Shown here: positions 44,107 through 59,152 of the stretch, piece after piece | How the letters are laid out: each line of letters starts with the position of its first letter | Numbering within the stretch: the first letter of the stretch is position 1 | From: Sedimentisphaerales bacterium | GTDB lineage: Bacteria > Planctomycetota > Phycisphaerae > Sedimentisphaerales > SM23-30 | Reading direction: 5' to 3' | Length of the DNA: 64,000 nt | NCBI GenBank assembly: GCA_028281535.1 | Contig: JANQJS010000038.1 | Span: 186,001 to 250,000 of the forward strand | Notes under the pieces: generated by a model | Databases searched by the model: none | Told to the model about the DNA's origin: nothing | Seen by the model: only the letters and a program-made list of their open reading frames with translations | Translations under genes and position numbers: made by a program

Positions 44107-45801
44107 ATGAAAAACATAATTAAAAGTTTATTAATGGTTGCCGCGATGATTGGGCTGTCAATCACAGGCGCCGCAGATGCAGCAAAAATCAATAAGTCTG
44201 GAAATATTTTTACTTCTGAGACTTGGACCGCTGACAATGTGTACAACTTGACCGACCAGGTATACGTTCTACCAGGTGCGACATTGACCATTGAAGCTGG
44301 TACTTTGATCCAAAGTGACACAACTGCTAATGGTGCTGGTAGCTTGGCTATTACAAAAGGTGCTAAAATTTACGCTCTAGGTACCGCTGAAAACCCAATC
44401 ATCATGACTTCAAGCAATGATGATTTAAAAACATGGCGCCCAGCGGCAAGCGAATGGGGCAATCTAACGGTTTTAGGTGATGCTCTTATCTCAGCATACA
44501 ACACTGGCGGTGTCGTCAATGTTATTAATGATAGTGGTAATATTCGCGCAAACACCTGCGTACCTGATGGTTTAAACCAATCAGTCATGGAAGGTTTAAC
44601 CGCTGCTGTTGCAGGTGATCCTCGCGTTCTTTATGGTGGCGACAATGATGATGACAACAGTGGAGCTATCTGCTATGTATCATTACGTTATGGTGGTCGC
44701 GTAACCGCTGTTCCTGGTAAAGAATTAAATGGTTTGTCTCTAGGTGGTATTGGCCGCTGCACTGACATTCACCACATCGACATCATGAACAACGTTGATG
44801 ATGGTATCGAAATCTGGGGTGGTACCGTTAACTTAAGCTACATCAGCATCTGGAATATTGGCGACGACAGCTTTGATCTTGATCAAGGTTGGAGAGGTAA
44901 AGCTCAGTTCGGTTGTATTGTTCAAGGTTATAGTGCTGATGATTCACAAGGTTCAGGCCTTGGTGATAACGTCTTCGAAATGGACGGTGCTGAAGATTCA
45001 GACTGCCAGCCTGTAACCACTTCAACTATCTACAACTTCACCGTTGTTGGTAACCCAGACTCTGGTGATGGTGCTACCGCATGGCGTGATGGTGCTCGCG
45101 TTCAGTTCCGTAATTGCATTTTCATGGATATCGGCGAAGAAATTGTTCGTCTTGATAACTCTGATGGTGCCCCTGACAATCACTTAGGTTATGGTGTCAA
45201 TGGCACCCTTCCATTCTTTGATGCTGGTAATCCTGATATTTGGGATACCGCTGCTGGTACTCACTCGACTGTCAATGATTGTGGTGGTTGCCCTGTAGGT
45301 GCTTTCAATCATCCTGATACACTTTACACTGTTCAAACCTCTGGAAACCTGGCTGAAATCGTTGATAGCTGCTTCTACAATGTTGGTGGTGACAGTGGCG
45401 AAAAAGCTATCCAAGTAGGTGTTCTACTTGGTACGATTGCATCTCCTGCTGACAACCCAGCTAAAGGCAACGATGTTTCAGCTACTTTACCTGTTCAAGA
45501 TGTACAACGTGCACCTGCAACATCTATTGGTGGAAAAACAGTTCGACGTGTTACATTTTTAGATCCTCGTCCAGTTGGTGATGCGAAAACAGGTGGCAAA
45601 CCTTGTATTGGTGACAAATTCTTCAAGGCAACCAACTACTGCGGTGGTTTTTCCGCTAAAGATAACTGGATGGAAGGCTGGACGGCCGCTTACCATTACG
45701 GCTTAACTGGTGTTCGCGGTGACGAAGATAACGATAACGATAATGATCTTATCGACTTCTCACTATCAAGCAGCGATTGGTTAGTAGACTTAGATAGCTA
45801 A
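44107..45801 (+). CDS. Abundant secreted beta-helix protein, cysteine- and aspartate-rich, unknown function
   Basis: A 564-residue exported protein with a clean signal peptide (SLLMVAAMIGLSITGAADA, residues 7-25). The mature part starts VYNLTDQVYVLPGATLTIEAG, an entry typical of right-handed beta-helices, and keeps short strand repeats (DDGIEIWGGTVNLSYISIWN; DDSFDLDQGW). It has about eleven cysteines (for example VNDCGGCPV) and acidic Asp/Asn runs, one near residue 180 (GGDNDDDNSG) and one near the C-terminus (GDEDNDNDNDLIDF) that look calcium-binding. Glycine codons are almost all GGT and AAC/TAC/ATC are common, unlike its neighbours, which indicates very high expression. A strong terminator follows, so it is monocistronic. 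A TonB-type uptake operon is next; a role as surface partner or binding protein for that system is inference. Confidence 0.8.
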   Translation: MKNIIKSLLMVAAMIGLSITGAADAAKINKSGNIFTSETWTADNVYNLTDQVYVLPGATLTIEAGTLIQSDTTANGAGSLAITKGAKIYALGTAENPIIMTSSNDDLKTWRPAASEWGNLTVLGDALISAYNTGGVVNVINDSGNIRANTCVPDGLNQSVMEGLTAAVAGDPRVLYGGDNDDDNSGAICYVSLRYGGRVTAVPGKELNGLSLGGIGRCTDIHHIDIMNNVDDGIEIWGGTVNLSYISIWNIGDDSFDLDQGWRGKAQFGCIVQGYSADDSQGSGLGDNVFEMDGAEDSDCQPVTTSTIYNFTVVGNPDSGDGATAWRDGARVQFRNCIFMDIGEEIVRLDNSDGAPDNHLGYGVNGTLPFFDAGNPDIWDTAAGTHSTVNDCGGCPVGAFNHPDTLYTVQTSGNLAEIVDSCFYNVGGDSGEKAIQVGVLLGTIASPADNPAKGNDVSATLPVQDVQRAPATSIGGKTVRRVTFLDPRPVGDAKTGGKPCIGDKFFKATNYCGGFSAKDNWMEGWTAAYHYGLTGVRGDEDNDNDNDLIDFSLSSSDWLVDLDS

Positions 45802-45882: not shown

Positions 45883-46317
45883 AAATAAAATAATCAGCTT
45901 ATATGAATATAACTTCATACCCAAATTATGATTAGCTCCCTTTCTAACAGAAATGTAACAAGCGAAAGCAGTCCCCTACTCAATAAATGGCGATTTTGGC
46001 GACTGGAAATTGGATTTAGCCTCCTACGAGAGCAGCTTAACACTATCGAAACATTACGCTAATAATACATTAGTCATCCTTAGATAGACTTTGTGGATTA
46101 AGGAATTGCTAGGAAACTGACAAAAGGAACGACTCCATAATTATTACTTACCATTTAGTTTTGATTCAAGCATATCGTTTAATTAGACAATGCTTAACAC
46201 ATTAAGTTTTATAAATCTATACCGAACCCACATGAATCAATAAAACGCCAAAGTCAACAACTTAGAAAATCCTAAAAATTAATAATGTTAAATAATACCA
46301 GGAGGCTACAAGTCAGA
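45883..46317 (+). other. Non-coding region upstream of the TonB-type transport operon
   Basis: About 435 AT-rich bases. Two weak promoter candidates are present (TTGATT 46163 with TAGACA at 17 bases; TTAACA near 46196 with TATACC at 18 bases). I see no RNA gene. An 37-codon frame at 45928 lacks a ribosome site. Confidence 0.4.
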
Positions 46318-47607
46318 ATGCTCAAAAACACGACATTGAATTCATTAATTATTAATAGCGTAATTATGATGCTATCAATTAATTGCCAACAGATCTATGG
46401 ATCTGCCTCTGAAACCAATGACAAATCTACAATCATAAAAAATTCACCTCAGGATACAAGTCATGTCGCTCAACCCGCAACAGATCAATCAATACAAAAA
46501 CACCAAATAGAGTTGCTGGATTTAGCATTTAATACAGCAACAATGATTCCTGTTCACCCACATATTAAAGATCGCTCTCTCGCTCAGCAAAAAGTTGTAG
46601 AAGCCTGTATCAAGCTAGGACAAATTAAAAAAGCTGAAATGTATATTCGAAAAATTGAAAATTGGCGAAAAAATTTATGTTATGCAACTATTGCATTTTA
46701 TTATGCCCAAAAAGATCAATCTGCTGAAGCAGAATATTATATAAGATTAGCCAATGTAATTGATAAGGATGTTACAGAATGGCGCCGAAGTAGAATTATG
46801 GCACTTATTGCTCAAGCTTATGCACGCCTGGGAATGAGTCAAAAAGCAACTGAATATCAAGCAGGATTAGAAGAGGCCGAACTTGGTAAAGTTGATACAG
46901 CACATGCGATGATAGCAAGCGAAGATTCTTTTTACCTTCAAATCCAAAGGCTTGATGAATTAATCTCAAAGGGAGTATATGACATTACAAAAAATGCATT
47001 AGATTCTTATGCTCAACTGTTTAATACCTTTTACAATAGCCTGGAAAGACGCACTGAAATCGAGACAAAAATCGAACAAATTATGAACGACAAACAGATA
47101 CGCATCCCACTGTTTGTAAAAATGGATGTGTATGAAAAAATGGCAAAACTAGCTCTTGAAAAAGGCGACAACATCAAAGCACTTGCATTCATTAATATCA
47201 TGCAAACATTATTTGAATCTGCTCAATGGCCAACCGATAAGCATGTGCCAAGATTAGCAAAACTTGCAGAATTACGATATAAAGCAGGTGATAAAGAAAA
47301 AGCAATAAAAGACCTTGAATCGGCTCATTCTGTTTATAAATCAAAAGGCAATAAAATAGTCAATATTTGGCGAGCAGGCGCTCTTCGTCCATTAGCTCAA
47401 TCATATAAAATTGTAGACAATTCAGAAGCATCCTTACTCGTTTACAAAAAAGCCGTTGAAGAAGGCATTGTAAATCCCAATTCCAGGCCCCGAGCTGAAG
47501 ACTTATCAGCAACTTGCAGTTCTATGGCACTATATGCAGTACAACCTGATGAAAAACTGAAAAAGCGGCTGTATGAGATTCATGAGGAATTGGGTTCGCC
47601 ATGGTAA
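46318..47607 (+). CDS. Exported TPR-like helical-repeat protein, first gene of TonB-type operon
   Basis: A 429-residue protein with an N-terminal hydrophobic signal (LIINSVIMMLSINCQQI) and paired helices in the TPR style (KVVEACIKLGQIKKAEMYIRKI; RIMALIAQAYARLGMSQKA; RLAKLAELRYKAGDKEKAI). ATG at 46318 is chosen because AGGAGG lies ten bases upstream; an ATG at 46285 lacks one. Its stop overlaps the receptor gene start by seven bases. It may assemble or support the receptor complex in the periplasm; no enzymatic motif is seen. Confidence 0.72.
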   Translation: MLKNTTLNSLIINSVIMMLSINCQQIYGSASETNDKSTIIKNSPQDTSHVAQPATDQSIQKHQIELLDLAFNTATMIPVHPHIKDRSLAQQKVVEACIKLGQIKKAEMYIRKIENWRKNLCYATIAFYYAQKDQSAEAEYYIRLANVIDKDVTEWRRSRIMALIAQAYARLGMSQKATEYQAGLEEAELGKVDTAHAMIASEDSFYLQIQRLDELISKGVYDITKNALDSYAQLFNTFYNSLERRTEIETKIEQIMNDKQIRIPLFVKMDVYEKMAKLALEKGDNIKALAFINIMQTLFESAQWPTDKHVPRLAKLAELRYKAGDKEKAIKDLESAHSVYKSKGNKIVNIWRAGALRPLAQSYKIVDNSEASLLVYKKAVEEGIVNPNSRPRAEDLSATCSSMALYAVQPDEKLKKRLYEIHEELGSPW

Positions 47608-50600
47608 ATTACCTGCGATATATTTGTTTAGGACTAGCCATATTAATGTTATCTGTTGAAACTGCTTGGACGCAGCAAGCAGGGAGTATTCGTGGCGTGG
47701 TATATGACAAAGATTTTGAATCGCCCCTCGCAGCTGCTAACGTGCTCATTTCAGAAATGGATGTTTCAGTTATAACATCTGAAGAAGGAAACTATGTCTT
47801 CGGTGAAATTGAACCTGGAACATACACTCTCATATTTTCAAAAGACGGGTTTACGACGCAGATTAAAGCAGATATCGTCGTTTCTGGTGGACAATTATCA
47901 GAAATTGACATTTGGCTTACTGGTGAATTTACAGAGATGGAAGAATTCATCGTACAGGATATCCAGATAGGCTCTGGATCTGAGGAAGCATTGCTACAAC
48001 TTCGCTTAGACAGTCCTGCATTAATGGACTCAATCAGTTCAGAATTAATGAGTCGAGCCGGCGCCAGTGACGCAGCCGGAGCTTTAAAATTGGTGTCAGG
48101 TGCAACTGTACAGGATGGTAAATTTGCTGTCGTTCGTGGTCTACCCGATCGATATGTAAATTCACAATTAAATAATGTTCGCTTGCCGACCTCCGATGAG
48201 GATAAACGAGCTGTCCAATTAGATCAATTTCCATCTGCTGCAATTGAAAGCGTGCAAGTTAGTAAAACATTTACTCCTGACCAGCAAGGAGATGCTTCTG
48301 GCGGAGCTGTTAATATCGTATTAAAAAGCATACCTGAAGAATCTATTTTCAAAATTAGTGGACAATCTGGTTACAATCTCAATGTCGTCGAGAACCGAAA
48401 TGAATTTCTGACTTCGCGTGGCGGCGGCGTAAATACGTGGGGCAAAGACGATGGTCGCCGTGACATGCAACCCAATGGACAAAACTGGAATGGACCATTT
48501 GGCGTTCAGGAAGGAGAAGCACCTGAAGATTATAAATGGTCGGTTTCAGCAGGCGGTAAAACATTTCTTGATAGATATGAACGGGTGAAAATCGGTGCTT
48601 TCGGTAGCTTTTTTTATGAACGAGATAGTTCCTATTTTGAAGATGGTATTGATGATAAATATTGGGTAGAAAACCTCGCTTTTACTGGTGGAGAAAGACG
48701 AATCGTTCCCGAGTATAGCCGTGGATCACCTCAAGAAGAATCCTTTTTGACCTCTTTGTTTGATGTTACACAAGGGGCAGAAGAAGTTAAATGGGGTGGC
48801 CTCGGAACAGTAGGGATCGAGACGAAAGACCACCAATTTGATGTCACATACATGTTCACACGCGTGGCAGAAGACAAAGCAACACTTCTAGAAGACACTC
48901 GAGGAAAAAAAACTTTAGCCAAATTTTTCCCAGACAACTTTAACCCGGACTTTTTTAGTAATTACGACCCGAAAGATCCTGATCACCCAGGAAATTCTGA
49001 AGCCGCAGATGCTGCTCCATATCTTAGACAAGAAACTCTTCAGTATACCGAACGAACAACACAAACGTTGCAATTTAGAGGAAAACATAAACTCGGTGAA
49101 TTGGATCTTAGCATTGGTGAGTTAATCACTTTTTTAAGACCAGAATTTGATTGGGGAATATCACATAATAAAGCAGATATGGATCAACCTGATAAGAGGC
49201 AATTTGGTACAGAATGGCGACCATTTGCAGGACTGAATGCAGAACCGACCCATTTAAGATTAAAACCCGGTGCCAGTTTCACATTAGGTAATGTCCAAAG
49301 AATTTGGAAAGATATCTCAGAAGATGGCGACCAGCAATATTTCAATATCAAACTCCCCTTCCAACTATGGAACGACCAGGAAGGTTATGCTAAATTTGGT
49401 TGGTTCAATGATCAAGTAAGTCGTGAATATAATCAAGACTCTTTTAGTAATTTCAGTGATGTGGGAGCACAATATGTCGGGCCATTTTCAGATTTATGGA
49501 GTGAGGTATTCGAAGATGAAGATCATCCAATATCAGCTGCCAGTGTAGACGTAGATTATGATGGCGAACAAAAAATTAATGCATGGTATTACATGCTCGA
49601 CATGCCAATAAGTAGCAATTTCAATATAATTGGTGGTGCCCGTTACGAAGATACAGAAATAAATATTGAGAATTTCCCTGATCCAGGTGGGCAAGTATTG
49701 TGGATTCCACCCAATGCATCCGCTCCACAAATATTAAATCCCGGTGATGCGGATGTTGCATTTGAACAATCAGACGTGCTGCCATCATTAGGGTTCGTTT
49801 ATGACATATCCGATCAATTTAAATTGCGAGGGTCATATAGCGAAACAGTCGCTCGGCAAACATTTAAAGAGCTGTCACCTATTCAACAACAGGAATTTCT
49901 TGGGGGTGATATATTCATCGGAAATCCGAACTTAAAAATGAGTTCACTCAAAAACTATGATATTCGGCTTGATTACACACCATACAATGGTGGATTAATT
50001 TCTTTTTCATATTTTTATAAAGACATAGAAGATCCCATTGAATATGTTCGCCGAATTGTTGGGTTTTCATTCACGACACCTGTTAACTACCCAAAAGGTG
50101 AGATTAATGGATTTGAAATAGAAGCACGTCAAAAACTAGGCCATTTTTCGAAAGAATTAAAAGGTCTTATGATTGGTGCAAATGCTACGTTCATTGATTC
50201 AGAGGTTACCCTACCAGCAAGTGAAGCTGCTCAATTCAATCAATTTTCAGTGCAATCACCGCGAAAAACACGTGATATGACAAATGCACCAGAGCATTTA
50301 TATAACTTATTTATGACCTACGATGTGCCAAATACAGGTACCCAATTAGCGGTATTTTATACCGTAAGAGGTGATACACTAATTGCTGGTGCAGGTCAAA
50401 AAGGGCAACTAGTTCCCAATGTATATGAATCAGAATATGGAACACTTAATGCTAGTATTACACAGAAATTAAATAAGTCATGGACGTTAAAATTGCAGGC
50501 CAAAAATTTACTCGACCCAGCGATTGAAACCATTTATCGGCCAATAGATATCAGTGGAGACACAACCAAAACATCGTATAAAAAAGGGATTGAATTTTCA

Positions 50601-50624
50601 GTCTCTTTATCAGGTTCTTTTTAA
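47601..50624 (+). CDS. TonB-dependent outer-membrane receptor, Oar/carboxypeptidase-regulatory type
   Basis: A 1007-residue outer-membrane receptor. Signal peptide (residues 1-25), a carboxypeptidase-regulatory-like beta-sandwich (about 27-110; SIRGVVYDKDFESPLAAANV), a likely TonB box (EEFIVQ near residue 116), a plug domain (about 135-245; GASDAAGALKLVSGATVQDG; FTPDQQGDASGGAVNIVLKS) and a 22-strand-type barrel ending in the terminal phenylalanine typical of outer-membrane proteins (SVSLSGSF). It imports a large or scarce ligand with energy from TonB. No SusD partner is present, so a polysaccharide-type Sus system is unlikely. Ligand unknown. Confidence 0.92.
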   Translation: MVNYLRYICLGLAILMLSVETAWTQQAGSIRGVVYDKDFESPLAAANVLISEMDVSVITSEEGNYVFGEIEPGTYTLIFSKDGFTTQIKADIVVSGGQLSEIDIWLTGEFTEMEEFIVQDIQIGSGSEEALLQLRLDSPALMDSISSELMSRAGASDAAGALKLVSGATVQDGKFAVVRGLPDRYVNSQLNNVRLPTSDEDKRAVQLDQFPSAAIESVQVSKTFTPDQQGDASGGAVNIVLKSIPEESIFKISGQSGYNLNVVENRNEFLTSRGGGVNTWGKDDGRRDMQPNGQNWNGPFGVQEGEAPEDYKWSVSAGGKTFLDRYERVKIGAFGSFFYERDSSYFEDGIDDKYWVENLAFTGGERRIVPEYSRGSPQEESFLTSLFDVTQGAEEVKWGGLGTVGIETKDHQFDVTYMFTRVAEDKATLLEDTRGKKTLAKFFPDNFNPDFFSNYDPKDPDHPGNSEAADAAPYLRQETLQYTERTTQTLQFRGKHKLGELDLSIGELITFLRPEFDWGISHNKADMDQPDKRQFGTEWRPFAGLNAEPTHLRLKPGASFTLGNVQRIWKDISEDGDQQYFNIKLPFQLWNDQEGYAKFGWFNDQVSREYNQDSFSNFSDVGAQYVGPFSDLWSEVFEDEDHPISAASVDVDYDGEQKINAWYYMLDMPISSNFNIIGGARYEDTEINIENFPDPGGQVLWIPPNASAPQILNPGDADVAFEQSDVLPSLGFVYDISDQFKLRGSYSETVARQTFKELSPIQQQEFLGGDIFIGNPNLKMSSLKNYDIRLDYTPYNGGLISFSYFYKDIEDPIEYVRRIVGFSFTTPVNYPKGEINGFEIEARQKLGHFSKELKGLMIGANATFIDSEVTLPASEAAQFNQFSVQSPRKTRDMTNAPEHLYNLFMTYDVPNTGTQLAVFYTVRGDTLIAGAGQKGQLVPNVYESEYGTLNASITQKLNKSWTLKLQAKNLLDPAIETIYRPIDISGDTTKTSYKKGIEFSVSLSGSF

Positions 50625-50665: not shown

Positions 50666-51529
50666 ATGAAAAAGTTACAGAAATCTAAATATTCAGGGAT
50701 CATTGATAACAGCCACCTGAATGTAATATTCAAGCCAAAACTGCTTATTATCATGATAAGTTTTATTTTTACTTGGCATTTTTCATCAATGGTCTTATCG
50801 GCAAATGATGAAAATAAGAGTGCTAAATTAATCGAGAATACTCGAACATCTATTGAAAAATGGGTTGAAACTAAAAAAATAATTTCCAAAGAAAAACGTG
50901 ACTTAGCCCTTGCTCGTGAAATGCTAAACGAGAGAATTGACCTGGTAGAGCGAGAGATAGAGACGCTCAAAGGTAAAATCACACAAGCAAAAGAAAGTAT
51001 TGCAGAAGCTGACAAAAAACGACTTGAAATGGTCGATGAATATGACAAGCTCAATGCCTCTTCTATCTTGCTGGTTGATAGAGTTAAACTCCTTGAAGCT
51101 CGTGCTAAAAGTTTACTTAAACGATTGCCAGCCCCAATACGAGATCGCATTAAACCTTTAAGTCGACGTTTACCCGAAAACTCTGATGATACAAAATTGT
51201 CCATGGGCGAACGCTATCAAAATGTGGTTGGCATTCTAAATGAAATCAATAAATTCAATCAGCAATTAACAATTACGCCAGAAGTAAGAGATTTACCAAC
51301 CGGTGGAAAAGCTGAAGTAACTGTTCTCTATGCGGGAATTGGTCAAGCCTACTATGTTGGAGGCAAAGGGACAATTGCGGGAATTGGTACGGTGTCGAAT
51401 GATAGCTGGATTTGGGTTCCTAAAAATGAAATTGCTCCACAGATCGACCAAGCAATTAAAATCATGAATAATGAACAGATTGCCGCTTTTATTTCACTAC
51501 CTCTTGAAATAAATCAGGAGGACAAATAA
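50666..51529 (+). CDS. DUF3450-family periplasmic protein of the TonB2-type system
   Basis: A 287-residue exported protein with a long charged n-region before the signal core (LLIIMISFIFTWHF). A coiled coil covers about residues 50-155 (KEKRDLALAREMLNERIDLV). The C-terminal domain carries the DUF3450 pattern KAEVTVLYAGIGQAYYV followed by GTVSNDSWIWV. Known DUF3450 genes lie directly before TtpC-type exbB genes in marine TonB clusters, as here. Function is not established; a periplasmic tether or adaptor is inferred. Its stop directly adjoins the next start. Confidence 0.85.
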   Translation: MKKLQKSKYSGIIDNSHLNVIFKPKLLIIMISFIFTWHFSSMVLSANDENKSAKLIENTRTSIEKWVETKKIISKEKRDLALAREMLNERIDLVEREIETLKGKITQAKESIAEADKKRLEMVDEYDKLNASSILLVDRVKLLEARAKSLLKRLPAPIRDRIKPLSRRLPENSDDTKLSMGERYQNVVGILNEINKFNQQLTITPEVRDLPTGGKAEVTVLYAGIGQAYYVGGKGTIAGIGTVSNDSWIWVPKNEIAPQIDQAIKIMNNEQIAAFISLPLEINQEDK

Positions 51530-53440
51530 ATGAAAATCAATAAGTCAACATGTTTTATCTGTGTATTACTTCTGTTTTTCTCTTACAGCTATGCGGAAAC
51601 CAATGTGGAATCTGACAATAAGCTTCTGCAAGTAACAGATTCTCTTCAAAAACAATTAGAAGATAGTATCGAAGAACTTAACGCTTTAAGAGAAACGATC
51701 GCTAATGAAAAAATCCCATTAAATCGAAGGCTAAACGAATTAGAAAGCGAACTTTCTGATGTGCGATCTGAATACCAAGAAACGATTAGAATTCTTGATA
51801 CTCGCACTTTAAATATAACTAACTTGCGTAACAAAATTAAATCTCGACAAGAGGAATTATCCTACTTATCTAATAACCTTTTTGGTCAATATATAAGAAA
51901 TTTTGAATCAAGATTACATATCGCAGAACTTCAAAAATATAGCAAACAACTCGAAGATGCAAGATTAGCTCCAGATAACAGTAATTTGACTCAACAAGAT
52001 ATCTATAATATTCAAGTGGATGTCCTAGAGACAACATTTGACCGATTTGAAGGCGCCTTAGGTGGAATTCGATTCGGAGGAAATGCACTGGATGATACAG
52101 GTCTTGTAAATATTGGTACTTTTTTGATGATTGGCCCAATGGTCATTTTTAAATCAATTGATGGAAGCGTAGTTGGTACTGTTGAACAAAAAATTGGCTC
52201 ACTGGAACCATCGGTTATTGCTTTTGGAAGCCCGATAAATTCTCAAGAGGCATCAGACATTATAAGTGAAGCTGGCGGAGCATTTCCATTTGATCCTACG
52301 CAAGGAAATGCACATAAGATTGAAGAAACTAAGGAAACCTTTCAAGAGCATGTAATGAAAGGTGGCCCTGTGATGTATCCAATATTTCTTCTGGCAGGAT
52401 CCGCCTTGTTAGTAGCTCTCTTGAAATGGATCTATTTAGCATTTAAACGCAAACCTTCTAAAAAATCCATTCAGGAACTATTGGCAGCTGTTGAGAAACG
52501 TGACAAAAAATTAATAAAAGAAAAAGTTGAAAACGTTAAAGGCCCAACAGGCGAAATGCTTTCAGCTGCGGTAGATCATATCAAAGAGCCACGTGATCTT
52601 ATCGAAGAAGTTATGTATGAAAAGCTTCTTGCCACACGTCTAAAATTGCAGAGCTTCTTACCTTTTATTTCGATCAGTGCTGCTTCCGCCCCACTTTTGG
52701 GTCTTCTTGGAACAGTAACGGGGATTATCAATACGTTCAAATTGATAACCGTCTTTGGTTCTGGTGATGTCAAAATGCTTTCTGGCGGTATCTCAGAAGC
52801 GTTGATTACCACTGAATGTGGCCTGATTGTTGCAATTCCGTCACTATTAATTCATGCCTTTTTGTCACGAAAAGCTAAAGGAATTACAGACGAAATGGAA
52901 AAATCCGCTGTGGCATTTACCAACCAATTGAGTAAAACCCCTTTTAAAAAAGATAAAACCAAAGAGATTGTTAAGGATTTAACTGATACACCAACGAAAG
53001 AAATTAGTCAAGATATCGGCGATAAGACTGCTGCCATTATCAATAATATAGAAGTGAATACATCAGACAAAAAAGAGTATGCTGATGATATTGCTGGCAG
53101 TTTAATGCATTCAAAAGTTGTAACAATTGATAAAAATGCAACTGTTGCTCAAGCCGTTGAAAAAATTCGCGAAACGGATATTAATGATTCCATAGACACC
53201 ATTATCATTATTGATGACAATGGTAAATTCCTTGGCCATGTAAAGATACGGCAATTACTATCACGTCCAGAGCAGACTCGGGTAGATACATTAATGGATG
53301 AAAAATCTCATTTTGTACATGTTGATACACACAAAAGTAAAGTTGACGACTTATTTAATCAGCATGATGTCAATAATATCGCAGTGGTAAATCATGATAA
53401 TCAACTCGTGGGACTTATTACCAGAAATGGACAATCATAA
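51530..53440 (+). CDS. TtpC-like MotA/TolQ/ExbB proton-channel protein with C-terminal CBS-domain pair
   Basis: A 636-residue inner-membrane protein. Signal peptide (1-22), periplasmic coiled coil (about 30-115), a globular periplasmic domain (about 160-255), then the ExbB-type channel: TM1 near 281-303, a cytoplasmic segment, and the TM2/TM3 core with APLLGLLGTVTGIINTF (about 385) and EALITTECGLIVAIPS. So far this matches TtpC of Vibrio TonB2 systems. Uniquely, a linker (about 455-523) leads to two CBS motifs (about 525-636; KVVTIDKNATVAQAVEKIRE; DDNGKFLGHVKIRQLL; NNIAVVNHDNQLVGLITR). CBS pairs bind adenine nucleotides, so channel output may be gated by energy state. The fusion reads as one frame with no disruption. 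Confidence 0.88.
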   Translation: MKINKSTCFICVLLLFFSYSYAETNVESDNKLLQVTDSLQKQLEDSIEELNALRETIANEKIPLNRRLNELESELSDVRSEYQETIRILDTRTLNITNLRNKIKSRQEELSYLSNNLFGQYIRNFESRLHIAELQKYSKQLEDARLAPDNSNLTQQDIYNIQVDVLETTFDRFEGALGGIRFGGNALDDTGLVNIGTFLMIGPMVIFKSIDGSVVGTVEQKIGSLEPSVIAFGSPINSQEASDIISEAGGAFPFDPTQGNAHKIEETKETFQEHVMKGGPVMYPIFLLAGSALLVALLKWIYLAFKRKPSKKSIQELLAAVEKRDKKLIKEKVENVKGPTGEMLSAAVDHIKEPRDLIEEVMYEKLLATRLKLQSFLPFISISAASAPLLGLLGTVTGIINTFKLITVFGSGDVKMLSGGISEALITTECGLIVAIPSLLIHAFLSRKAKGITDEMEKSAVAFTNQLSKTPFKKDKTKEIVKDLTDTPTKEISQDIGDKTAAIINNIEVNTSDKKEYADDIAGSLMHSKVVTIDKNATVAQAVEKIRETDINDSIDTIIIIDDNGKFLGHVKIRQLLSRPEQTRVDTLMDEKSHFVHVDTHKSKVDDLFNQHDVNNIAVVNHDNQLVGLITRNGQS

Positions 53441-54078
53441 TGAATGAGTCGGCTCCAAAATTGAATTTTTCTGATATTTGGGAGCAAGCCTTATCCATTT
53501 GGGTAACAGGTGGTTGGGCCATGGTCGCCATAGCATTTATTGCCTTAGTGATGTTTACTATAGGTATGAATATGTATTTCAAACTCGCCAGCAAAGGCGT
53601 TGGTAAAATCAAAGAAAAAACTTGGCGAAATTGGATTGACCAACCCGAACTGCGAAAAGGTAAAATCGGAGCGATTCTTGATTTTGTTACAGCAAGTAAA
53701 TCTTTAAGCGACATGTCCGTTTTCTTTTCCGAAATTCGAGCGACTGAAATTGCACCATTTGATCGTGACCTAAAAGTGATGAAAATATGTGTGGGAACCG
53801 CTCCATTAGTAGGACTTCTTGGTACAGTAACTGGAATGCTCACTACGTTTGACGCTTTATCTTCAGGATCTGGAGGTGAGAAAACTATGTCAAGCATAGC
53901 TTCAGGTATTTCAGAAGCGCTTGTTACAACAATGACAGGTTTGGTTGTTGCACTACCAGGTCTCTTTTTTCAATATCAATTGGCTCGTAAAAATGAAAAA
54001 TATAAATCATTTTTATCACATGTAGAAACAGTTTGTACTCAAAAACTTTATAAGAAACTAAAGAAAAAGGTTGCATAA
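53440..54078 (+). CDS. exbB: ExbB-like proton-channel subunit
   Basis: A 212-residue MotA/TolQ/ExbB family protein with three transmembrane spans (about 26-48, 110-130, 160-185). The conserved core is GTAPLVGLLGTVTGMLTTF, followed by GISEALVTTMTGLVVALPG. It forms the proton-conducting stator with ExbD that energises TonB. It overlaps the TtpC-like gene by one base. This second ExbB-type gene next to a TtpC-like one is the hallmark of TonB2-type clusters. Confidence 0.93.
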   Translation: MNESAPKLNFSDIWEQALSIWVTGGWAMVAIAFIALVMFTIGMNMYFKLASKGVGKIKEKTWRNWIDQPELRKGKIGAILDFVTASKSLSDMSVFFSEIRATEIAPFDRDLKVMKICVGTAPLVGLLGTVTGMLTTFDALSSGSGGEKTMSSIASGISEALVTTMTGLVVALPGLFFQYQLARKNEKYKSFLSHVETVCTQKLYKKLKKKVA

Positions 54079-54099: not shown

Positions 54100-54504
54100 A
54101 TGGGACGTTTTAGTCAAATGTCGTCTGAAGAAAACAATGAAGATGGTATCGATATATCACCGTTGCTTGACTGTGTATTCATCTTATTGATCTTTTTTAT
54201 TGTCACAACCGTTTTTGTTGAAGAGACTGGCGTCGAAGTTGACAAACCACAAGCGGCATCAGCCGTTCAACTTGAGAAAAACAGCATCTTGCTTGCGTTA
54301 ACAGAAAAAGGAGAAGTGGTTTATGGCGGACGAGACATTGGCTTTAGTGGCGTACAACCTCTTGTTAAACGCATGCTACAAAAAGAAGAAATCCCAGTGA
54401 TTGTGCAAGCAGACTCGAAAGCAGATTCTGGACTGCTTGTTCGAGTGATAGATGAAGCCAAACTTGGCGGTGCCATAAAAGTTAGCTTAGCAACCAAGAA
54501 TTAA
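54100..54504 (+). CDS. exbD: ExbD-like subunit of the TonB motor
   Basis: A 134-residue protein with one N-terminal transmembrane helix carrying the essential membrane aspartate ([19 protein letters not shown]), and a periplasmic ExbD/TolR domain ([39 protein letters not shown]). AGAGGA precedes the ATG. It couples proton flow through ExbB to movement of TonB. Confidence 0.95.
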
Positions 54505-54508
54505 ATAT

Positions 54509-55171
54509 ATGGAAGAATCAAAAATAACAAGAATTATAATCCAATTATTTCGACGCATTATGGCTATTATAATTGCGATCGGGATGACAGGTGCATTGTT
54601 TCTTGTCTTGCCTTATATTCAAGCAATTAACGACCCAATAACGCAACAGACTCGAGTTGTATCGGTCGATAGCGTCATTGACCCGCCACCACCTCCCCCA
54701 CCTGAGGAGCAACCTCCAGAAGAACCTGAGCCAGAAGAAGAACCACCGAAGCTGACAGAAGAAGCTCCCCCTTTAGATTTTGACATGCTTAACCTAGCAT
54801 TAAATGCTGGATTAGGAGAAGGTCTTTTAGCAGGAGATTTTGGCATCAATTTAAAAACAATTGTTGCTGAAAGTAAGGGAAGTGATGATTTATTTTCAGT
54901 AGCAGATTTAGATCAGAAGCCTCGAGTCACTTATCAGACCAGTCCAATCATGAATGAAAAAATTCGACGTAAAATGCCTGGATCTGTAACGCTAATATTT
55001 ATTGTGGATACTGAAGGACGTGTTACAAAACCTAAAATATTAAAATCAACAGATCCGGTATTTGAAAGACCTGCACTTAGTGCTATCAAACGTTGGAAAT
55101 TTGATCCTGGCAAAAAGAATGGCAAACCCGTTAATTCAAAAATGAAAATACCTATTACCTTTTCAAAATAG
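54509..55171 (+). CDS. tonB: TonB energy-transducing protein
   Basis: A 220-residue protein: one transmembrane helix (about 12-36), a short proline/glutamate-rich spacer (PPPPPPPEEQPPEEPEPEE), and a C-terminal TonB domain (about 140-220; GSVTLIFIVDTEGRVTKP; FERPALSAIKRWKFDPG). It contacts the TonB box of outer-membrane receptors. The short spacer is characteristic of TonB2-type proteins. It starts four bases after the exbD stop. Confidence 0.94.
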   Translation: MEESKITRIIIQLFRRIMAIIIAIGMTGALFLVLPYIQAINDPITQQTRVVSVDSVIDPPPPPPPEEQPPEEPEPEEEPPKLTEEAPPLDFDMLNLALNAGLGEGLLAGDFGINLKTIVAESKGSDDLFSVADLDQKPRVTYQTSPIMNEKIRRKMPGSVTLIFIVDTEGRVTKPKILKSTDPVFERPALSAIKRWKFDPGKKNGKPVNSKMKIPITFSK

Positions 55172-55219: not shown

Positions 55220-56650
55220 ATGAAGTTTCAATGGAACATAAATTTCAAACAGCTTATCTATTCCGCGTTGGTTATCTTCACTTTAACTATGCATGTTATA
55301 GCGCAAGAAGAAGAAAATAAAACACCACTCGTAGAGATAAAGCCTGCCAATATCGGTGAAATTGAATTAACTATTTGGAACGATCCAAAATTTCGTCGCG
55401 ACTTTGCTTTAAGCTACAAAGCGTCATCTGAAATCGAACCTCGAGCTGCGGCTGACGAACGTGAATATCTTGAAGAAATATTAAATTTTATTTCCAACGA
55501 AAAAGTGAAAGATGCTGAAAAATTGTTACTTAGACTTCAAAAAGAAAAGAACGCTAGCGCCCTTTATGATTTCACTTTAGCTAATATTTACTTCCAAACA
55601 GACCGATTTGAAGAAGCAGCAAGCAACTATCAAATCGCCATAGATAAATTTCCAAAATACTTGCGAGCCCACAAAAACCAGGCTCTTATTTATATGCGTT
55701 TGAATCAATACAAAAAAGCATTACCTGGCTTAATCAAGGTGATTGAACTCGGCGGAGGTGAAGCAAAAGCGTATGGTCTTCTTGGTTTTGCTTATGCGAC
55801 AATGGATAATCAATTATCCGCAGAATCTGCATTTCGCATGGCAGTCATGCTTGATCCTGAAACCACAGACTGGAAATTAAGTTTAGCCTTGAGCTTATAT
55901 AAACAGCAACGCTACCCTGAAACAATTTCTTTATGTAAATTACTGATCAAAGAGGATCCTGAAAGCGAACGATTATGGCTCTTAAAAGCAAATTCGCATA
56001 TTGGCTTAAACCAGGCAATGAAAGCTGCTGAGATTTATGAGCTATTGGATCAAATGAAAAAAACAGATTTCAATAGCTTAAATATGCTCGCTGACATTTA
56101 TATGAATGATCAGTTATATGAAATTGCGGTCGATCGATATATTAAAGCGATGAATCTTGAGCCGACCAAAAGACCCAACCGTGCATTACGTGCATCTAAG
56201 CTATTGATATCAAAAGGTGAAATGGAGCAAACCAAGAAACTTATCAAAAACATTGAACGTATTCACATTGATAATCTTGAAATTGAAGACCGTAAAGATA
56301 TGCTCAAAACACGTGCACGAATTGCAGTTGCTGAAGGGGCTGGTGATCAAGAAGCGAAAATTCTAGAAAAAATCGTAGAATTAGATCCCTTGGATGGTGA
56401 AGTATTAATTCTTCTTGGTCAATACAATCGCCGCATGGACAACAATGAAAAGGCCATCAATTACTTTGAACGAGCTGCCAGCCTGGAAAAACATGAAGCC
56501 GACGCTAAAGTTCGCCATGCGCAATTATTAGTCAGTATGGGTAAATACCCAGAAGCAATTAAACTTCTTAAGCGAGCACAAACAATCAAGCCTAGAGAAA
56601 ACATCCAAAAATATCTTGATCAAGTGGAACGAGTTGCCAAAAATCGCTAA
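55220..56650 (+). CDS. Exported TPR protein of the TonB2-type operon
   Basis: A 476-residue secreted protein with a signal peptide (LIYSALVIFTLTMHVIA) and about ten TPR-like helix pairs (YDFTLANIYFQTDRFEEAASN; KAYGLLGFAYATMDNQLSAES; EVLILLGQYNRRMDNNEKAIN). A TPR gene at this position, right after tonB, is a recurring member of TtpC/ExbB2/ExbD2/TonB2 clusters. It probably organises the periplasmic complex. AAGGAC precedes the ATG. Confidence 0.85.
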   Translation: MKFQWNINFKQLIYSALVIFTLTMHVIAQEEENKTPLVEIKPANIGEIELTIWNDPKFRRDFALSYKASSEIEPRAAADEREYLEEILNFISNEKVKDAEKLLLRLQKEKNASALYDFTLANIYFQTDRFEEAASNYQIAIDKFPKYLRAHKNQALIYMRLNQYKKALPGLIKVIELGGGEAKAYGLLGFAYATMDNQLSAESAFRMAVMLDPETTDWKLSLALSLYKQQRYPETISLCKLLIKEDPESERLWLLKANSHIGLNQAMKAAEIYELLDQMKKTDFNSLNMLADIYMNDQLYEIAVDRYIKAMNLEPTKRPNRALRASKLLISKGEMEQTKKLIKNIERIHIDNLEIEDRKDMLKTRARIAVAEGAGDQEAKILEKIVELDPLDGEVLILLGQYNRRMDNNEKAINYFERAASLEKHEADAKVRHAQLLVSMGKYPEAIKLLKRAQTIKPRENIQKYLDQVERVAKNR

Positions 56651-58135: not shown

Positions 58136-59152
58136 ATGCAAAAAATTACCCTATTGGGCCTGGTAGCTCTGTGCCTATACGCCAACATTGCCTGTGCTGA
58201 ATTCTTAACGAATCAAAGCAGCGATTTCACCCTTCTTTCCGAAAAACGGATTAAAACCGGCAAGAATGTTCAGATCTTAGGATCTGTGGGGTCCGGTAGT
58301 CAAATCAAACTCGGAAAACGGTCATTTGTGCAAAATGATGTATTTACCAATGGCAGTTTCAAGTCGGCAAGTAATTCCTCGATATCAGGCAGGGTTGTTG
58401 CTAATGACAGCATTAAAGTTGGCTCTAACTCACAAATTGGCCGACTAGACGGTGGTCAAGATGCTAAAATCGGCAACAATTCCTTAATTTTTGGCCCCAT
58501 AGGTGTAGCAGGCAATTTAAATATACATCCTGGTGCTTTTGCTTTAGGAGGAATTTCAGCCACTCATGATTCATGGAATGCAACCGGAGTCCCAGATCCC
58601 CCTGCCACATCATTTGATAATCCGAACTTATTAGTTGATATTAATGTTTCTAAAAACCAAACAGGAAGTGTTGCACCTGGTAATTATGCCGATTTAAACT
58701 TAAAAAATAACGCAACGATTATTTTAAGTGCCGGAACCTATTTCTTTGACCGAATCAATATGAAATCTCGCAGTATGATAATCGCTGATACGACCAATGG
58801 CGCAGTTAATGTCAACGTTGCAACAATATTAAAATCAAGTAACCGCGCATCTGTGAGAAACACGGGGGAAAATGACTCTAAATTTACTGTTTTTGGCGAT
58901 ACAAAAATTGGCCCAAATAATAATATCCTGGCTGATATTATATCGCTTGACAACCTCAAAGTTGGCAAGAAGACGTTGCTGTCCGGTTCCTTCTTTTCTG
59001 AAGGCGACATTCGTCTTGGCAGCAATGTCATCGTGAACAGCTCTGGATCAGATGGCAGCATACCACAGATTCCTGAGCCTGCTTCCGCCCTCTTGTTGAC
59101 AACCGGAATAGCTGCTTTATTAAAGCGTCGCAAAACTAAGACTCTAAGCTAA
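58136..59152 (+). CDS. PEP-CTERM-anchored beta-helix surface protein
   Basis: A 338-residue secreted protein with a signal peptide (TLLGLVALCLYANIACA) and a C-terminal PEP-CTERM sorting signal: PEP at IPEPASA, a hydrophobic span (ALLLTTGIAALL) and a basic end (KRRK). The middle is a row of short strands with Asn/Ser/Gly turns (FVQNDVFTNGSFKSASNSSI; GQDAKIGNNSLIFGPIGV), a beta-helix like that of bactofilin or polymer-forming proteins. Exosortase would cleave and anchor it; no exosortase gene is in the window. Probably part of an extracellular matrix or biofilm. Confidence 0.87.
   Translation: MQKITLLGLVALCLYANIACAEFLTNQSSDFTLLSEKRIKTGKNVQILGSVGSGSQIKLGKRSFVQNDVFTNGSFKSASNSSISGRVVANDSIKVGSNSQIGRLDGGQDAKIGNNSLIFGPIGVAGNLNIHPGAFALGGISATHDSWNATGVPDPPATSFDNPNLLVDINVSKNQTGSVAPGNYADLNLKNNATIILSAGTYFFDRINMKSRSMIIADTTNGAVNVNVATILKSSNRASVRNTGENDSKFTVFGDTKIGPNNNILADIISLDNLKVGKKTLLSGSFFSEGDIRLGSNVIVNSSGSDGSIPQIPEPASALLLTTGIAALLKRRKTKTLS

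Follow-up and report, generated by a model that had tools for sequence, protein, structure and literature searches.

In the tonB2 operon of Vibrio vulnificus, the DUF3450 protein TtpB2 heads the gene set directly upstream of ttpC2, the TPR protein TtpD2 lies at the operon end, and all six components are reported to be essential for TonB2 siderophore uptake (PMC6957404). The order DUF3450/ttpB-ttpC-exbB-exbD-tonB-TPR/ttpD is shared by the TonB2 systems of Vibrio (PMC6957404) and Alteromonadales, with a receptor ahead of it in Alteromonas, and the TtpC of these bacteria combines a MotA_ExbB domain with a periplasmic region. Alteromonas macleodii has this same gene order with an unfused TtpC of ∼454 aa. 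The proton gradient is described as the power source for motors of the ExbB/TolQ/MotA type, and ExbB and TolQ assemble as five-fold rings. To our knowledge, no built-in CBS control domain is known on the cytoplasmic side of any of these motors.

CBS pairs form part of the cytoplasmic domain of the Mg2+ transporter MgtE, where the pairs of the dimer contact each other, and the classical motif is not a prerequisite for ligand binding by CBS pairs. In Thermus MgtE, ATP is contacted by Y170, R187, D188, N203, V207, and F227 (PMC5529423), and Mg2+ gating in MgtE also needs the N-domain and the plug helix (PMC5882242). Here, we describe a TonB2-type operon in a 64,000-nucleotide stretch of DNA from a Sedimentisphaerales bacterium (hereafter, the window), in which the TtpC subunit carries a C-terminal CBS pair that descends from MgtE.

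Results and Discussion

The operon and its surroundings

The window holds a complete TonB2-type operon consisting of DUF3450/ttpB, ttpC, exbB, exbD, tonB, and TPR/ttpD, with a TonB-dependent receptor ahead of it (Table 1), which is the arrangement of Vibrio/Alteromonadales and, with regard to the receptor, of Alteromonas. From the sequence, the stop codon of the ttpC gene overlaps the start of exbB (TAATG). The order DUF3450-TtpC-ExbB-ExbD-TonB-TPR is common to the fused and unfused loci that we checked, the exceptions being contig ends and small variations. The gene context suggested no ligand for the CBS tail.

Some of the neighboring genes deserve mention in their own right. A 564-aa protein without a Pfam match is encoded upstream of the receptor (44107-45801), and its relatives are found beside TtpC operons at loci L067 (47%) and L071 (51%). 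Directly upstream of the receptor lies the gene for a weakly TPR-like protein of 440 aa (46285-47607), which has relatives at the same place in most TtpC loci, whether fused or unfused. Further along, a 338-aa protein (58136-59152) has a C-terminal PEP-CTERM-like sorting signal (PEPASALLLTTGIAALLKRRK) that we spotted by eye.

Table 1. Genes of the TonB2-type operon and segments of the TtpC-CBS protein, in window coordinates
Feature	Position	Strand	Basis
TonB-dependent receptor, upstream of gene set	47601..50624	+	Pfam, NCBIfam; conserved neighbor
DUF3450 protein (TtpB-like), first gene of TonB2-type set	50666..51529	+	Pfam; cf. PMC6957404
ttpC-CBS fusion gene, 636 aa	51530..53440	+	ORF listing, sequence, Pfam
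Signal peptide, N-terminal, about residues 1-23 (...SYSYA/ETN)	51530..51598	+	Sequence reading; low-confidence segment in AlphaFold model
Coiled coil, periplasmic, residues 33-128	51626..51913	+	AlphaFold model; conserved alignment columns
Beta domain, periplasmic, residues 180-231	52067..52222	+	AlphaFold model
MotA/TolQ/ExbB proton-channel domain, residues 338-457	52541..52900	+	Pfam, hydropathy
Linker, two predicted helices, residues 476-507	52955..53050	+	AlphaFold model, tails of relatives
MgtE-derived CBS pair, residues 516-633	53075..53428	+	Pfam, PDB sequence match, trees, structure
ExbB: second MotA_ExbB protein, without CBS tail	53440..54078	+	Pfam
ExbD	54100..54504	+	Pfam
TonB	54509..55171	+	Pfam TonB_C
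TPR protein (TtpD-like)	55220..56650	+	Pfam; conserved order

A TtpC subunit fused to a CBS pair

Pfam places MotA_ExbB at residues 338-457 of the 636-aa protein (E 9e-28; 97 bits against a curated cutoff of 22.9), and the only other family over its cutoff is CBS, which matches in two stretches (E 6.9e-14; 52.4 bits against a curated cutoff of 24; best stretch 523-578); no complete MgtE N-domain, plug helix, or channel was found by the same search. TolQ and ExbB of known structure are among the PDB sequence matches, with residues 372-465 matching TolQ (2e-9), as is Thermus MgtE, which matches residues 516-632 (4e-10). Hydropathy indicates membrane segments at about residues 280-305, 376-400, and 424-445, with TM helix 1 (∼283-304) upstream of the Pfam MotA_ExbB domain, and these segments, when taken with the topology of ExbB/TolQ, would place the tail on the cytoplasmic side. 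An earlier note on this DNA, made from the sequence alone, had read the gene as a complete TtpC-like ExbB/TolQ protein followed by two CBS motifs. The Pfam MotA_ExbB match and the TonB2-type gene set bear out the first part of this reading; its GLLGTVTG core is present, although it starts at residue 391 rather than 389, and both C-terminal CBS motifs are there, although the homology starts at ∼516 rather than 525.

Beyond the MotA_ExbB domain that it shares with ExbB/TolQ stators, the protein has a periplasmic coiled coil and beta domain, both of which also occur in TtpC relatives, and the CBS pair. The MotA_ExbB domain and the matching periplasmic region are common to the Vibrio/Alteromonadales TtpC, whereas the window protein adds ∼165 residues that include the CBS pair. 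The matches listed from a plasmid collection end by query residue ∼470 and have no CBS pair. The linker occupies the position where the final repeat of the MgtE N-domain survives as a remnant in several relatives, and the CBS pair is entered through an MgtE-type motif, Y-x-x-D-x-A-G-x-x-M. The protein ends at residue 636, immediately past the pair; the second CBS motif finishes right after its final strand, short of the helix on which its end normally lies.

An AlphaFold model built from 53 sequences has a mean pLDDT of 81.8 overall and of ∼95 across the CBS pair. Structural superposition of the pair gives Z scores up to 19.1, with an rmsd of 1.8-3.2 over 123-131 residues. In a match list filled by CBS chains, every one of the nine top structures is an Mg2+ transporter, either MgtE or MgtE-like (Z 17.4-19.1), other CBS proteins come next at Z of 16.4 or less, and the same nine MgtE entries head another structural match list. 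With two motifs over the Pfam cutoff and a CBS-pair fold in the predicted structure, the tail is a CBS pair (Bateman module). A profile search with no CBS match in this region would, according to the earlier note, have spoken against its reading, and the search returned a CBS match to the tail; a chance or weak match can be eliminated from the Pfam score, the pLDDT, and the structural matches. Because the frame is intact across many independent genomes, the fusion is neither a chance frame nor an assembly artifact, and we regard the joining of a TtpC stator subunit to a CBS pair as confirmed.

Distribution and maintenance of the tail

Close orthologues occur in 20 of the 161 genomes searched from the order of the window; the tail is intact in 11 of them, degenerate in three that belong to one genus, and absent from six. 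None of the close orthologues from other families of the window's class has a CBS tail. When 84,980 species genomes were scanned, 14 of the best 80 loci had the tail, which is not to be read as a frequency because the ranking of this locus list favors fused proteins. Three carriers (L058, L133, and L075) lie outside the planctomycetes: by rpoB, they group with a genome labeled Omnitrophota, and the rpoB tree rules out mislabeled planctomycetes. The joint occurrence of CBS and MotA_ExbB across genomes, proposed as a check in the earlier note, shows that the fusion recurs, both as intact tails in the order and in the Omnitrophota-labeled clade. Nor is it a tail shared by all TtpC proteins, the outcome that would have spoken against the earlier reading: most orthologues stop shortly past the channel domain and have no CBS motifs, which rules out an ordinary TtpC tail. 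One divergent TtpC relative of 480 aa (L141 in genome G406, 36% identity) has no room for a CBS tail, and its genome belongs to the same genus as fused carriers.

Close pairs have dN/dS values for the CBS part of 0.04 (L012/L067), 0.11 (L061/L062), and, in the genus whose tails are degenerate, 0.09-0.16, and values of 0.04-0.11 for the motor core. Such low values indicate that the tail is maintained by selection, and the CBS pair is under purifying selection in these close pairs. Over long times the tail is constrained, yet more loosely than the core, as the mean identity among intact fused proteins is 46% for the tail versus 63% for the core; in same-order MgtE, the CBS pair has 65%. Decay is seen in two lineages: CBS1 is eroded in L016, L017, and L018, which are of one genus, and CBS2 is eroded in the Omnitrophota-labeled L133, with the reading frame still open in all of these tails. 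This decay and the six same-order genomes with tail-less orthologues imply that the motor can do without the tail.

Origin from MgtE

With Thermus MgtE as the root, trees of the CBS pair, which were built from a short alignment, unite the 17 TtpC tails in a single clade (100/99) that is nested in a clade of same-order MgtE (100/99); the MgtE of the window genome itself lies outside both, as do those of other orders. The MgtE sample consisted of matches of the window protein and of the tail, taken from the window's order first and then from the phylum. An N-domain remnant of the type 'EMPAAVAREVVRSL' is retained in the tails of L061, L062, L064, L067, and L012, and since several tails keep sequence resembling the last N-domain repeat, the donor was an MgtE rather than another CBS protein. 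Sequence homology, the trees, and the structure show that the CBS tail descends from MgtE of the window's order, a closer tie to MgtE than the earlier note had guessed.

The free tree of TtpC cores scatters the fused proteins, with seven changes. A tree in which all fused cores form one clade is better by 10 lnL and is not rejected (AU 0.595), and the tails are a single clade, so independent repeated fusions are not needed. On these grounds, the history would most simply be that an MgtE CBS pair was grafted onto TtpC once and then spread by lateral transfer or was lost. The MgtE of Omnitrophota-labeled genomes are more distant from the tails (E 2e-12 to 5e-6), which makes Omnitrophota an unlikely donor and, together with the placement of the donor clade, suggests that the transfer ran from planctomycetes to Omnitrophota.

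Residues of the known ligand sites

The tail has the CBS sequence, entry motif, and fold (Z up to 19) of the MgtE cytoplasmic domain in common with it, but is without the complete N-domain, plug helix, channel, ATP-site residues, and D-Q-E. The window equivalents of the Thermus ATP contacts Y170, R187, D188, N203, V207, and F227 are T557, R574, Q575, D590, H594, and V614, respectively, and across the 17 tails R187 is the sole ATP-site residue that is mostly kept, as R in 11. The S/T-x-x-D ribose motif is missing from both CBS units of the window protein (K572..Q575 and T631..G634). The alignment indicates that the donor MgtE clade was already without the equivalents of S185, D188, and F227; S185 itself is found in 16/16 of the aligned canonical MgtE, and the residue test therefore detects an ATP site where one is present. 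The D-Q-E motif (Thermus 214-216), which we take to have a role in Mg2+ binding, is found in the MgtE compared at 40/40 (D), 40/40 (Q), and 39/40 (E), against 5/17, 3/17, and 0/17 in the tails, which also have neither the plug helix nor the complete N-domain used in MgtE gating. Judged by these positions, it is improbable that the tail senses ATP or Mg2+ in the way that MgtE does. What the tails share is A540, D562, G569, L576, P580, E586, R597, H612, and a terminal R-N-G, among which E586 (15/17), R597 (15/17), H612 (14/17), and R632 (15/17, then N-G) are rare or absent in same-order MgtE. The pattern would fit a scaffold that has been retained while its surface changed.

The same-order MgtE clade (L022-L037 and other loci) is of interest in itself. 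Its members have R for the serine of the CBS1 S/T-x-x-D (20/20), most of the Thermus ATP-site residues are gone, and D-Q-E is kept; gating in this clade may thus proceed without ATP.

Possible roles of the graft

In the account that we prefer, the C-terminal cytoplasmic part of MgtE, comprising the end of the N-domain and the CBS pair with neither plug helix nor channel, became joined to the C-terminus of TtpC, the additional ExbB-like subunit of the TonB2-type motor. The motor would work like other TtpC/ExbB/ExbD/TonB systems and energize the adjoining TonB-dependent receptor, a role that we infer from family knowledge and gene order, and the CBS pair would serve as a dimerization or docking module through which TtpC subunits, neighboring motors, or a cytoplasmic partner are coupled. 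From the fold, and with the residues of known ligand sites gone, docking or dimerization is the most likely of the roles considered for the tail; for the account as a whole, graft, working motor, and module together, we see about an even chance. The five-fold ring implies that five tails cannot all pair inside one ring, and we speculate that tails might pair between rings or that the copies of TtpC might be fewer than five. A statement framed differently, that the CBS pairs either gate the proton motor via some ligand or partner or else pair TtpC and so bridge protomers or adjacent motors in spite of the five-fold ExbB ring, is plausible to us at somewhat less than even chances.

The main rival is that the CBS pair senses a ligand foreign to MgtE (another nucleotide, SAM, c-di-AMP, or a metabolite) through its tail-specific residues. 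The newly conserved E586, R597, H612, and R632-N-G would suit such a sensor, as would the purifying selection on the tail and the binding of nucleotides by many of the CBS pairs among the structural matches, but S/T-x-x-D is found in neither CBS unit, the second unit stops before its usual end helix, and the gene context points to no ligand, so that we consider this reading rather unlikely. The earlier note had instead proposed that the pair senses ATP/AMP and tunes energized uptake to the adenylate state. Although the fold has an ATP-binding MgtE relative in Thermus (PMC5529423) and R574 stands where R187 is mostly kept, the other contacts (Y170, D188, N203, V207, and F227) are replaced, and the donor clade was already without the S185, D188, and F227 equivalents, S185 being kept throughout the canonical MgtE of the alignment; adenylate sensing finds no support and is, in our view, improbable. 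A lack of nucleotide-binding residues, which the note had named as evidence against itself, is what we find at the known sites, and a different ligand could still be bound. A functionless leftover of an accidental fusion would accord with the patchy presence of the tail, with its degeneration in three close genomes and L133, and with its faster evolution relative to the core. It is nonetheless an improbable reading, given that CBS dN/dS, at 0.04-0.16 in close pairs of three lineages, resembles that of the motor core and that many genomes, among them those of a second phylum-level clade, have kept frame and fold.

Conclusions

TtpC, MgtE, and CBS pairs are each known, and their combination is undescribed in the literature searched. 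In line with the earlier note, which knew of no TonB stator with a CBS domain, we found no paper that joins ExbB/MotA_ExbB with CBS as a fusion in a search that had most subscription journals outside its reach. The locus presents a channel sensor that was captured by an unrelated motor, then lost its ligand residues, and moved into a second phylum-level clade. As a natural TtpC with a maintained CBS graft, it offers a way to probe the copy number of TtpC in the TonB2 motor, and it lets one ask whether the cytoplasmic face of this motor can be regulated.
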